A stretch of DNA of 20,229 nucleotides from a virus: positions 1 through 20,229 of the IMG/VR virus record IMGVR_UViG_3300005529_000582; one strand, 5' to 3'. The notes under the pieces are model-generated. The model saw only the letters and a list, made by a program, of their open reading frames with translations, ran no database searches and was not told where the DNA came from. Position 1 is the stretch's first letter. Every line of letters begins with the position of its first letter. A program made the position numbers and the translations under genes. This document shows positions 2,800-11,087 of the stretch, piece by piece.

Positions 2800-3027
2800 A
2801 TGTTGATCCTGACCAGGAGAACAGGCGAGACGGTAATGATCGGAAACGAGATCACCCTGACCGTGCTCGGCGTCAAAGGCAATCAGGTCCGCATCGGCAT
2901 CAATGCGCCGAAGAGCGTGCCGGTGCATCGTGAGGAGATATACGAGCGCATCAAGCGCGAGCTGCAGGGCGATGTGAATGGCAATGTCGACGAGGCGGCG
3001 ACGCGCAAGGTGGAGTTCGCGCGGTGA
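2800..3027 (+). CDS. csrA: Carbon storage regulator CsrA (phage-borne)
   Basis: A 75-residue homologue of CsrA/RsmA, the dimeric RNA-binding protein that binds GGA motifs in leader hairpins and changes translation or mRNA stability. The whole core is present: [10 protein letters not shown] at the start, [18 protein letters not shown] in the middle, and [10 protein letters not shown] with Arg44, which together with Leu4 and Arg6 forms the RNA-binding surface in characterised members. The tail after residue 55 is longer than in many chromosomal proteins ([17 protein letters not shown]) and acidic in part. The start is fixed by a strong ribosome binding site. Its stop overlaps the GTG of the ATPase gene, so the two are translationally coupled. 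Phage copies of csrA are known and are thought to redirect host gene expression; the target here is unknown. Confidence 0.97.
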
Positions 3028-4733
3028 CGAAGCTCGCCATTCCAGACGCCGCCCTAGCTCAGCACGTCATTGCCCTCGGCAAAACAGGCTCGGGCAAAAG
3101 CTCGAAGCTGCGCTTGATCGTCGAGAAACTGCTCGATCTGCAGGTACCGACGTGCATCGTGGATCCGAAGGGCGATTGGTGGGGTCTCAAATCCTCGGCC
3201 GACGGCAAGCACGCCGGGTATCCGGTCGTGATTTTCGGCGGCGAGCACTGCGACGTGCCGCTCAATTCACACGCCGGCGCGCACGTCGCCGAGCTCGTCG
3301 CGACTGGCAACCGTCCCTGCATCGTCGATCTCGGCGGCTGGATGATCGGCGAGCGCACGCGCTTCTTCATCGACTTCGCGGCCGCACTCTTTCGACTCAC
3401 GCGCGGCCCGCGGCATCTGGTGATCGACGAAGTCCACAACTTCGCGCCGCAAGGAAAGGTGCTCGATCCGGACGCGGGCAAGATGCTGCATTGGGCGAAT
3501 CGGCTAGCGAGCGAGGGGCGCGGCAAGGGACTGACGATCATCGCGGCGAGTCAACGCCCGCAGAAAGTTCATAAAGACTTTCTCACTTCATGCGAGACAT
3601 TGATCGCAGGCCGAGTGATCCACAAGCTCGACCGGGATGCGATACGGGATTGGATCGACGGGTGCGCTGATCCGACGCTCGGCAAGCAGGTGCTCGGCGA
3701 GCTCGCAAACATGAAGCGCAACGAGGCCTGGGTCTGGTCGCCAGAGATCGATTTCGGCCCCGAGCGCATTGCGTTTCCGATGTTCAAGACGTTCGACTCG
3801 TTCCAGCCGCAGGCGGCCGATGCCGCGAAGCTCAAAGGCTGGGCCGAAGTCGATCTCGAGGAAGTGAAGACGAAGCTAGCGGCGGTGGTCGCAGAGGCTG
3901 AAGCGAACGATCCCGCCGTGCTGCGCAAGCAACTAGCGGAGCTTCAGCGGCAGTTGAAGGCAAAAGGCGCGCCCACGCCCGAGGATCTGAAGGCAGCCGA
4001 GCAGCGCGGCTTCGAGCGTTCCAACGCACTCGCCATCGAAGCGCAGAACGCCCTGCTCTCGAAATTGCAGCTCGACTTCGAGTCCGCGCTGGATGGTCTG
4101 CGCAAAGCGTTCCTAGCCACGCTTGGCGGCGCCCGCTCGGAGAACCCGGTACGCAGAGTCGAAGGACGCCGCCCGGCGGAAGCCTTTCAGGAGCGCCGAA
4201 CCGGAACTGCGCCGAGCCTTCCTCGTGCACGGCAGATTGACGGGCGGGCGCCGATCAACGGCGCGAGCGAGGACATCGGCTCAGGCGGAAAACATCGCAT
4301 CCTCGTCGCGCTGGCTCAGCAGGGCCGGCCAACCGATCAGCGCCGACTCTCGCTGCTGACGGGCCTCTCATCGCGCAGCGGAACGTGGAGTACCTACCTC
4401 TCGTCGCTTCGACAGTCTGGCTACATCGAAGGCCGTGAGGCGCTGTCGATCACGCCGGCGGGACTCGCGGCGCTCGGCTCGTTCGAGCCATTACCGACCG
4501 GGCCAGAGCTCATCGAATACTGGCGCCGCCGTCTCGGCGAGAGTGGCAAGCGCGCGATCTTCGATGCGGTCATCGACGCTTATCCTAGTCACATCGATCA
4601 GGAGGCTGTCGCATCAGCCGCAAGCCTATCGGCGCGAAGTGGCACATGGAGCACCTACCTCAGCGAGCTTCGCGGACTCGGATTGATCGAAGGGCGCGGT
4701 GAACTGCGCGCGAGTGAGGACTTGTTCGCATGA
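3024..4733 (+). CDS. HerA/FtsK-like P-loop ATPase with duplicated C-terminal module
   Basis: A 569-residue protein starting at GTG (overlap with the csrA stop). Residues 1-250 are a P-loop ATPase of the HerA/FtsK/DUF87 type: Walker A GKTGSGKS (19-26), DPKGDWWGL (47-55), Walker B HLVIDE (131-136) followed by VHNF, and the conserved TIIAASQRP (171-179) after GRGKGL. Residues about 270-360 look like a coiled coil. A Pro/Arg-rich linker leads to two copies of a winged-helix-like module (about 421-485 and 507-569), each with [10 protein letters not shown] and IEGR. Such ATPases pump or translocate DNA or proteins as hexamers. No nuclease or effector partner of the known HerA defence types lies next to it. 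Its role could be DNA processing, packaging or conflict with the host; this is open. Confidence 0.85.
4374..4697 (+). repeat. Duplicated winged-helix-like segment inside the ATPase gene
   Basis: Residues 451-471 and 538-558 of the ATPase match at 17 of 21 positions (bases 4374-4436 and 4635-4697), sharing [12 protein letters not shown] and IEGR. The segments before them are also comparable: a helix, Leu/Ala-rich turn, then the shared recognition-helix-like part and a strand pair. The codons differ between the copies, so the duplication is old or selection acts on the protein. The arrangement suggests two DNA-binding units in one chain. Confidence 0.75.
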
Positions 4734-6315: not shown

Positions 6316-6491
6316 GCGGCACTCCTGCGAAATCAAAAGGTCGCCAACAACCCCGCTTGCGGGCGCTACCGTCCATTGGCGTGCCCGATCCGGCGGCCGT
6401 GCTACCCTTGCTCAAGGGGCTTCTGCAAAAACGGCAAGAACGTGAACGCGAACAAGAACGCCGCGACCTATCGCAGGTCATCAAAGGATAG
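6312..6491 (+). CDS. Short protein before the recombinase
   Basis: A 59-residue frame whose ATG overlaps the preceding stop (ATGA). The product begins MSGTPAKSKGRQQPRLRALP, continues with a Pro/Ala-rich hydrophobic stretch (PDPAAVLPLLKGLLQ), and ends in a highly charged helix (KRQEREREQERRDLSQVIKG). It overlaps the recombinase start by 50 bases. The coupling and the sensible helical ending argue that it is translated. It could be an accessory factor of the recombinase, but only position supports that. Confidence 0.6.
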   Translation: MSGTPAKSKGRQQPRLRALPSIGVPDPAAVLPLLKGLLQKRQEREREQERRDLSQVIKG

Positions 6492-7971
6492 GAACGACGT
6501 CTCGCCGGCTGCGCAGCAGCGCAAGCTGGAAGACCTCGCGCGCGAACGCGGTCTCATGACCGTCGCGGACTTCGTGGACGTATTGGAGTCGGCATCGGAA
6601 GAAGAAGAGGATCGCTCCGATTGGCCAGGATGGGTTGAGCTGACAACGGCATTGCAGAATCCTCGACGCGGTTGGAATCACCTCCTGATCTACGATACGT
6701 CACGCGTTGCGCGACGGCGGCACATCGCAGCCGCATTCAAGCATCGCGCGAAAAAGCTCGGCGTCACGATCCACTTTGCGACGATCCCGCAAGACCTTGA
6801 CCCGATTGCGGAGGTATTCCTCGAGTCGATGTTCCATGCGTACGACGAGGCCCACTCGCTGATGTGCCGGCAAAAAGGCCTCATGGGGATGGCGGAGAAC
6901 GTGAGGCGGGGTTGGCGGGCGGGCGGCCGGGCGCCGATGGGGTATCGGCTCGAACATCAATCGACTGGCGTCATTCGAGACGGTCGGCCCGTGATGAAGT
7001 CGAAGCTCGCGCTCGGCCCCGATGCGGAGCGGATCCGCGCGTATTTGAAGGGCCGCGCAGTAGGCCTACCGCGCGCGAAACTTGCGCGCGACATCGGGCT
7101 CAAATGCAATCCATCGAGCCTGATCGGTATTGAATGGAACGCGTTGACCTACGCAGGTCACGCAGTCTGGAATGTTCACGCAGAACCAGGCAAGGGAGCG
7201 AAGCGACGCCCGCGTGAGGAATGGATCATCCAGCGCAACACGCACGAGGCATTGATCACGGATGTCGAAGCGGAAGCGATCCTCACCGCGCTGACGAATA
7301 GCCGAGTGGGCCAGGCGGTTTCGAAAGCGAAAGCCGCGATGTCCGACTATCTCCTAACCGGCATTCTGTTCACCTCGGACGGTAGACCTTGGACGGGCAA
7401 GAGCGGCGTGTACTACAAGTTACGTCGCTCGGAGCAAGGGCCAGGTCGTTTAGTGAAATGCGAGCTCGTCGATCAGGCAGTGCTCGCTCAGGTGACGTCC
7501 GACATGCGATCCGACGCCTTCCTTGAAAAGCTCATCTCGATGAGTCGCGAAGCGGGACTCATGACCGATCCCGGGAAACCGATCCGCGAACAACTTGCCA
7601 AGCTGGAACGCGAGAAGCATCGAGCGGCAGAGCTCGCTCTGACGGTTGAAGATGGCGGGACGTTCACCAGGATCATTGAGGAGCGATCTCGCCAGATCGA
7701 GGCGCTGCGCGCCGAGTTGGCCGCCATCAAAGCAGACTCGACCCTCAGCGAGATGATCCGCGCCCTCACGCCGGCGAAGCTCCGCGAACTGCTGATGGAG
7801 CTTGGGGGGCCTCGGGCGGCGCTATCTCACATGGCCGAACGAGTAGTGCTCGAGCCCGATCTGAACACGTTCCAAGTGCACTATCGCGCCGCTTTGGGCC
7901 TATCCGTGGTATCGCCTTGGGGACGCCAAGGATTGGCCCCGGTGTTTGTCAAGGCGTTGCGCATCGCCTGA
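6442..7971 (+). CDS. Large serine recombinase (phage integrase)
   Basis: From the GTG at 6442 the product is 509 residues. The catalytic domain begins at once with AATYRRSSKDR, in which Ser14 sits where the nucleophile of serine recombinases lies (YxRxS), followed by AAQQRKLEDLARERG and LLIYDTSRVARRR (about 81-93). The linker helix and recombinase domain follow (RGWRAGGRAPMGYR, 156-169; TYAGHAVWN near 236). The part usually forming a Zn ribbon (303-340) keeps LLTGILFTSDGRPW but has lost the cysteine pairs; only Cys340 remains. A coiled coil lies at about 378-433. Such enzymes cut and rejoin attP and attB. A TTG at 6376 would add a Cys-rich tail and is unlikely. It closes the left operon. Confidence 0.93.
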   Translation: MNANKNAATYRRSSKDRNDVSPAAQQRKLEDLARERGLMTVADFVDVLESASEEEEDRSDWPGWVELTTALQNPRRGWNHLLIYDTSRVARRRHIAAAFKHRAKKLGVTIHFATIPQDLDPIAEVFLESMFHAYDEAHSLMCRQKGLMGMAENVRRGWRAGGRAPMGYRLEHQSTGVIRDGRPVMKSKLALGPDAERIRAYLKGRAVGLPRAKLARDIGLKCNPSSLIGIEWNALTYAGHAVWNVHAEPGKGAKRRPREEWIIQRNTHEALITDVEAEAILTALTNSRVGQAVSKAKAAMSDYLLTGILFTSDGRPWTGKSGVYYKLRRSEQGPGRLVKCELVDQAVLAQVTSDMRSDAFLEKLISMSREAGLMTDPGKPIREQLAKLEREKHRAAELALTVEDGGTFTRIIEERSRQIEALRAELAAIKADSTLSEMIRALTPAKLRELLMELGGPRAALSHMAERVVLEPDLNTFQVHYRAALGLSVVSPWGRQGLAPVFVKALRIA

Positions 7972-9075: not shown

Positions 9076-9384
9076 ATGTGCTCAGTGAAGAAGCTGGTGA
9101 AGTGCGGCGACCCAGGTACGAGGTTCGCGGGCTACGCGTTGACCAAACCACAAGACGGACCGCACGCCGTATGGGTCGAGTTTCAGTGCACCCGCGCCGA
9201 CGCGCATCCTGTCAACGGTAGCGAGCACTGGTACGAGCATGACGGAGTGCGGGTGACATGGTCGATCCCGGCTGACGCTGTATGGATGGCGGAAAGCAAC
9301 GCAGAGAGAACCGAGCCGAACCGGAACGATGACGAAGAACGCTGCGGCGTGAACCAGCTCGCCGACATCCATCTCTCGAAGTGA
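9076..9384 (+). CDS. Small unknown protein
   Basis: A 102-residue protein from ATG 9076, sixteen bases after the previous stop. A beta-rich middle (GPHAVWVEFQCTRADAHP, then HWYEHDGVRVTWSIPADAVW) is followed by a polar, charged tail. Three cysteines lie at positions 2, 10 and near 38. I recognise no domain. Its stop codon forms part of the base of the long hairpin at 9383-9451, so its mRNA end is probably defined by that structure. Confidence 0.62.
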   Translation: MCSVKKLVKCGDPGTRFAGYALTKPQDGPHAVWVEFQCTRADAHPVNGSEHWYEHDGVRVTWSIPADAVWMAESNAERTEPNRNDDEERCGVNQLADIHLSK

Positions 9385-9451
9385 ACGGCGCTCGCTGGGC
9401 GGGAATGCCGCTCCCACTTCCGTCGGCGTTCCGGCCTGGCGGGCGCCGTTC
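9383..9451 (+). other. Long RNA hairpin, 28-bp stem
   Basis: Bases 9383-9410 pair with 9424-9451 around a 13-base loop (9411-9423). Of 28 positions, 23 are Watson-Crick, four are G-U and one is a G-G mismatch (9401/9433). The outermost nine pairs are perfect (GAACGGCGC with GCGCCGTTC). All four wobble pairs (9392/9442, 9396/9438, 9397/9437, 9406/9428) are G-U only in the + strand RNA; on the other strand they are A-C mismatches. The structure therefore belongs to rightward transcripts. It lies between convergent genes, so a transcription end or RNA-stability element is likely. No T run follows, so it is not a standard intrinsic terminator; a small structured RNA is an alternative. Confidence 0.72.
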
Positions 9452-9456
9452 GGATA

Positions 9457-9732
9457 TCAGGTCGTGAGGAACATCGAGTAGCGCCGGCAGAACTTCAGGA
9501 AGGTCGTCTTCAGCGCCTTCGCCATCGCCGGCACTTCGGTTAAGTCGAGTCCGCGGCCGCCGGTCTCGAGCGCAGACATCGTCTGCTGATCCCAGCCCAT
9601 TGCCTTGGCCACCTGCTCCTGAGTCAGCCCAGCTTCCTTTCGGCAGGCGATAACCGTCAACTTCAGGGCGACATGAGCCTTGCTTCGTAAGACCGCGGGC
9701 ACGTTCCGACGCTTCCAAACGGGGAGCGTCAA
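9457..9732 (-). CDS. XRE-family helix-turn-helix repressor
   Basis: A protein of up to 91 residues with a clear XRE/Cro-CI helix-turn-helix: LKLTVIACRKEAGLTQEQVA (23-42) followed by KAMGWDQQTMSALETGGRGL, then a helix pair (EVPAMAKALKTTFLKF). It is short, with no oligomerisation or peptidase domain like that of lambda CI. The TTG at 9732 is the longest start; a GTG at 9702 with GGAA motifs upstream would give 81 residues and may be the true one. It is transcribed away from the operator-like dyads at 9749-9788, as expected for an autoregulated phage repressor that also controls the rightward cluster from 9880. Confidence 0.86.
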   Translation of the reverse strand: MTLPVWKRRNVPAVLRSKAHVALKLTVIACRKEAGLTQEQVAKAMGWDQQTMSALETGGRGLDLTEVPAMAKALKTTFLKFCRRYSMFLTT

Positions 9733-10659: not shown

Positions 10660-11004
10660 ATGGCAAGGGCCGAACAGATGGGAGGCATGGCGGGCGCACC
10701 GCTGGGCGTGATGCTCGCGATGGTGGTGGCGTCGGTGACTTTGTGGGGAGCTGCACAGCCCGCGAATCGGACGCGACCCGCAGCGGCGCGACCTGCAGCT
10801 CAGAAGGAACTCGTCGCTTTTGGTTGCCAATGCGACGACGGCACCACATGCATCGTTGTGCCGCATGCCGAGCGCGTGCCGTGGCCGCCGGTCGGCGCCA
10901 GAGCCGCGAGCACGATAGAGGACGACGATGGTCATCCGATCGGGCTCGTATGCTGGCACGCCGATCATCTGGTCATTTGGAAGATACCGGCGCAACAAAC
11001 GTGA
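10660..11004 (+). CDS. Unknown exported or membrane-anchored protein
   Basis: A 114-residue protein preceded by GGGAGG. Residues 14-32 (PLGVMLAMVVASVTLWGAA) are a hydrophobic segment, either an anchor or a signal peptide. An Ala/Pro/Arg-rich linker leads to a compact domain with three cysteines early (FGCQCDDGTTCIVVP) and one later (IGLVCWHADHLVIW). The pattern suggests a small disulfide-bonded periplasmic domain. The gene ends the rightward cluster and faces the leftward late genes. No family is recognised. Confidence 0.62.
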   Translation: MARAEQMGGMAGAPLGVMLAMVVASVTLWGAAQPANRTRPAAARPAAQKELVAFGCQCDDGTTCIVVPHAERVPWPPVGARAASTIEDDDGHPIGLVCWHADHLVIWKIPAQQT

Positions 11005-11068
11005 ATGTATCGGGCCGCTCGCCTTCCTCACCCCTATCGCGCTTACCTGGCACGGAACGCGATGAGTC

Positions 11069-11085
11069 GGGCGGGCGGCCCGTCC
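11069..11085. terminator. Possible hairpin between convergent genes
   Basis: A seven-pair hairpin with a three-base loop (GGGCGGG, CGG, CCCGTCC; one G-U pair) lies two bases beyond the stop of the leftward gene at 11088 and 65 bases after the rightward gene ending at 11004. The + strand after it is only moderately T-rich and the - strand has no T run, so termination in either direction is a guess based mainly on position. Confidence 0.3.
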
Positions 11086-11087
11086 TT

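Follow-up and report, generated by a model that had tools for sequence, protein, structure and literature searches.

Bacterial transcripts may end at hairpins that have no U-tract behind them. In E. coli, GC-rich hairpins without a U-tract and with C-rich, G-poor sequence downstream have been associated with transcripts that Rho terminates farther on and that exonucleases then trim back (PMC13289151), and trimming by exonucleases back to a hairpin has also been described in B. subtilis (PMC12350095). In Streptomyces, structured 3′ ends that lack a U-tract form a defined class, and genes for XRE regulators often have bidirectional ends (PMC8269248). Among phages, poly-U-less terminators have been reported from the early region of phiC31, as given in a title cited in PMC8355165.

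The window analysed here is the whole of IMG/VR record IMGVR_UViG_3300005529_000582, a stretch of 20,229 bases that may itself be a fragment. Its source is a temperate tailed phage. The rightward genes start at 488 and include csrA and the gene for a serine integrase, int (6376–7971), while the leftward tail and lysis genes run from 20212 to 11088. The csrA gene also precedes int in the related loci L012, L031, L037, L041 and L049, and 85 phage records contain a match. A HerA/FtsK-like ATPase (DUF87, 3024–4733), similar to a PHROG labelled terminase large subunit, adjoins csrA among the rightward genes and is not grouped with the leftward structural genes. Searches of bacterial genomes with the integrase and tail proteins confirmed no relative. 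The features that concern us lie at two junctions between convergent genes:

9076 to 9384, + strand: open reading frame of 102 amino acids, function unassigned, at the end of the rightward block, with a TGA stop codon (9382–9384) that overlaps the base of the stem
9383 to 9410, + strand: 5′ arm of the hairpin
9411 to 9423, + strand: loop of 13 nt, CTCCCACTTCCGT on the + strand and ACGGAAGTGGGAG on the − strand, where it contains ANGGANGU at 9423–9416
9424 to 9451, + strand: 3′ arm of the hairpin
9457 to 9732, − strand: gene for an HTH_3 (Cro/C1-type) regulator that converges on the hairpin (Pfam PF01381, E 3.9e-11; PHROG transcriptional regulators)
9210 to 9309, − strand: C-rich, G-poor stretch ahead of − strand read-through, ordinary for that strand
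9565 to 9664, + strand: C-rich, G-poor stretch (38 C, 22 G, 22 YC) ahead of + strand read-through, rut-like by composition only
11011 to 11082: second hairpin without a T-tract, unrelated in sequence to the first, filling the convergent junction 11005–11087

The first hairpin fills the 72-nt gap between the end of the + strand gene and the end of the HTH gene, and its stem starts inside the stop codon of the former. The initial annotation had described a 28-bp stem with one mismatch, placed between convergent genes directly behind a stop codon and lacking a T tract, and this description holds: there are 28 paired positions, the sole mismatch is G-G at 9401–9433, the flanking genes end at 9384 and 9457, and neither the + strand tail (GGATATCAGGTC) nor the − strand tail (ACTTCGAGAGAT) contains a T-run. 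The upstream gene has a coding score of 0.17 bits/codon, compared with 0.23 for int, and the searches found no relatives of it. Folding of both strands, one of the checks that the annotation had proposed, gave strong structure on each. The + strand 83-mer containing the hairpin has a minimum free energy of −56.5 kcal/mol (z −6.51) and the − strand hairpin one of −42.4 kcal/mol (z −3.72), with 0 of 200 shuffles equally stable in either case. The ungapped hairpin score of 63.5 is the best in the window. In sixty first-order Markov sequences as long as the window the best score averaged 35.0 and never exceeded 56.5, which corresponds to a Gumbel p of approximately 2e-4 for a 20-kb sequence of the window's composition.

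Some other origins for such a palindrome could be set aside at this point. An assembly artefact is unlikely, as the Watson–Crick complementarity between the arms is only 82%. A protelomerase-type telomere was rejected in view of the 13-nt unpaired loop at the centre and of the serine integrase that the phage encodes, and an integron attC was rejected from the sequence since the GTTRRRY/RYYYAAC ends are absent.

Four of the five non-Watson–Crick positions in the stem are G·U pairs on the + strand (9392–9442 U-G, 9396–9438 U-G, 9397–9437 G-U and 9406–9428 U-G). These pairs had been taken to reveal the RNA strand, and while all four do fall on the + strand RNA, that claim is overstated and the bias is not significant. 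Under the neutral expectation a transition in a stem leaves a G·U pair in one RNA strand and A·C in its complement, and either strand is as likely as the other to receive the G·U. The two-sided probability that all four land on the same strand is thus 1/8, which is weak as strand evidence. The − strand hairpin is likewise strong. The distribution of G·U pairs gives a hint that the + strand RNA is under selection, without revealing which strand is used.

We consider it likely that the hairpin is a bidirectional 3′-end element common to two converging transcription units. It would most likely set the ends of rightward mRNAs carrying the genes up to 9384, and would probably set the end of the leftward HTH-regulator mRNA too. 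This reading is based on the exact fit of the hairpin between two stop codons, on the strong structure of both strands (z −6.5 and −3.7), on a similar U-less hairpin at the window's second clear convergent junction, on the C-rich, G-poor sequence that + strand read-through would meet, and on the presence of U-lacking hairpins in published 3′-end maps of other bacteria. Counted against it are the lack of conservation of the hairpin in relatives and the lack of enrichment of such structures at the junctions of relatives.

One way in which such an element could work is that RNA polymerase passes the hairpin and enters the opposing gene, where it would be halted, most plausibly by Rho acting on untranslated C-rich antisense RNA; 3′-to-5′ exonucleases would then trim the RNA back until the stem blocks them. 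On the + side the stretch at 9565–9664 is antisense to the HTH gene and its excess of C over G is matched in just 3.3% of 300-nt stretches, while the C-richness on the − side (9210–9309) is common, with 21% of stretches attaining it. It is Rho binding, not composition, that defines a rut site. Alternatively, the stem alone may terminate transcription, as an “I-shaped” intrinsic terminator. Both are candidate mechanisms and we do not choose between them, Rho termination followed by trimming being a likely one.

Comparison with the described systems places the hairpin most probably among ordinary 3′-end hairpins of the U-lacking kind that is already known. Of the features of a canonical intrinsic terminator, the GC-rich stem-loop is present and the U-tract directly 3′ of the stem is not, the tails being GGATATCAGG on the + strand and ACTTCGAGAG on the − strand. 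A terminator scan missed the hairpin, although its loop limit of 8 would have excluded a 13-nt loop in any case. The initial annotation had concluded that this was not an ordinary terminator, which is correct in the sense of a hairpin plus U-run but not beyond it, since 3′ ends with U-less hairpins form an established class. Its suggestion of a transcript end formed by another mechanism, or of a stabiliser of the message, is supported by the anatomy, by the second hairpin and by the published maps. With the Rho-terminated, trimmed ends (PMC13289151, PMC12350095) our hairpin shares the GC-rich stem, the absent U-tract and the position after a stop codon, and on the + side it may share the C-rich, G-poor downstream sequence; its RNA end and Rho dependence are predictions. 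With the I-shaped or HS-U-lack ends of GC-rich bacteria (PMC8269248, PMC8355165) it shares a GC-rich genome and a single strong hairpin that follows a stop codon and has no U-trail, although here termination is a prediction. The phiC31 terminators are alike in being phage hairpins without U-tails, a likeness of description, taken from the cited title, rather than of sequence, and the phage of the window is not known to be an actinophage. As described where they are cited in PMC8269248, the bidirectional terminators of Ju, Li and Liu (2019) are also single elements between convergent stops, stable on both strands; the window hairpin lies between convergent genes and is structured on both strands in the same way but has no U-tract on either, and its use in both directions is predicted.

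The second convergent junction separates the leftward block from an open reading frame that ends at 11004, and folds over nearly its whole length. The hairpin within it has a free energy of −44.1 kcal/mol (z −4.26) on the + strand and −45.4 kcal/mol (z −4.70) on the − strand. We are less sure of this junction than of the first, as the open reading frame ending at 11004 scores weakly as coding (0.04 bits/codon). When we ranked 29 convergent junctions of 40–200 nt from the window and its relatives by z, using rough gene calls and a Markov null that is wider than the shuffle null used for single folds, the two hairpins of the window came first and second. Strong hairpins were not found to be enriched at the convergent junctions of the relatives compared with other junctions (Mann–Whitney p 0.41). 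The lowest z of all junctions scanned belonged to a tandem intergenic stretch in L037 (1796–1935; −64.1 kcal/mol, z −5.1).

To judge conservation we used tail relatives (L003–L009 and L058–L066) and integrase relatives (L010–L055). No recognisable copy of the hairpin was present in any of the fetched relatives L003–L066, and in their total of approximately 0.9 Mb no ungapped hairpin scored above 50.5, compared with 63.5 in the window. A search of phage records at blastn sensitivity gave no match to the hairpin, and the two-arm pattern was not found in IMG/VR. The relative nearest in layout, in which both tail and integrase match, is L005, and its corresponding junction contains no inverted repeat. 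Elsewhere, on the − strand of L005 (20949–21018), a 28-pair hairpin followed by TTATTTT lies upstream of a phrog_874 relative and resembles a more conventional terminator.

Several other functions could be proposed for a hairpin of this kind. The long, almost unbroken stem on the + strand could be an RNase III processing site that separates or matures transcripts, or the source of a stable small RNA. A 28-bp stem is long enough for RNase III cutting, and in the early RNA of phage T7 the RNase III sites are in intergenic positions. Here, however, the HTH gene is convergent and there is no close downstream gene on the same strand to separate. Rfam gave only sub-threshold matches for the hairpin, with no family reaching its gathering score, and the conservation expected of a regulatory RNA was not seen among the relatives and databases searched, so we regard this explanation as unlikely. 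Absence from every relative examined would suit instead a REP- or MITE-like palindromic repeat, recently gained from a host between the two stops, with any stabilisation of 3′ ends being secondary. REP elements are GC-rich hairpins too, and they stabilise 3′ ends (PMC13289151); weak similarity was found to stretches of Sinorhizobium and Rhizobium plasmids (E 0.2–0.8). These matches are at chance level and fall in records almost without annotation, the window contains one copy (a count made over the viral record), and neither phage records nor IMG/VR returned a further copy, which makes a mobile repeat quite unlikely.

The loop suggests a different function, as on the − strand it displays ACGGAAGU and the phage has a csrA gene of its own (2800–3027; PF02599, E 6.3e-26), as do the relatives named above in which csrA precedes int. 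A second site, AUGGAUGU, lies 51 nt from the loop motif at 9372–9365 on the − strand. This proposal is post hoc, with 11 occurrences of the motif over both strands of the window, and the second site falls in coding sequence of the opposing gene. Known CsrA sponges carry far more than the two sites present here, and there is no conservation. A CsrA-binding element is thus very unlikely, and it is highly improbable that the − strand hairpin is an element of this type in the 3′ UTR of the HTH regulator; if it were, the phage's own CsrA would control the regulator message. The hairpin was also considered as the attP of the serine integrase, with half-sites as inverted repeats, because several integrase relatives have strong palindromes near the end of int. 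In those relatives the repeats flank GGCGTCCCCA, a core complementary to a tRNA 3′ end. No core of this type lies in the hairpin, and one with inverted arms is already present 1.4 kb away at 7897–7938, inside the 3′ end of int. The probability that the hairpin is attP is therefore negligible and we reject it. Read as a shared 3′-end element, the hairpin is a clear instance of convergent transcription units in a phage being closed by strong hairpins without a T-tract; terminator scans that depend on a U-run miss such structures, and beyond annotation the interest is modest.

The likely attachment site itself is more unusual than the hairpin and may merit separate work. In nearly all integrase relatives the core starts within the last 18–143 bp of int, often with inverted arms, and in the window it is on the reverse strand between arms GGCCTATCC and GGATTGGCC. 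From core and arms, 7897–7938 is likely to be attP, and the attachment site of this serine-integrase family probably lies inside the 3′ end of int. At a minimum of 12 loci, examples being L018, L024, L031, L035, L037, L038, L040, L041, L043, L044, L046 and L049, the int reading frame continues into a complete tRNA T-arm and ends 40 bp beyond the start of the core, an arrangement which suggests that integration would swap the last codons of int.
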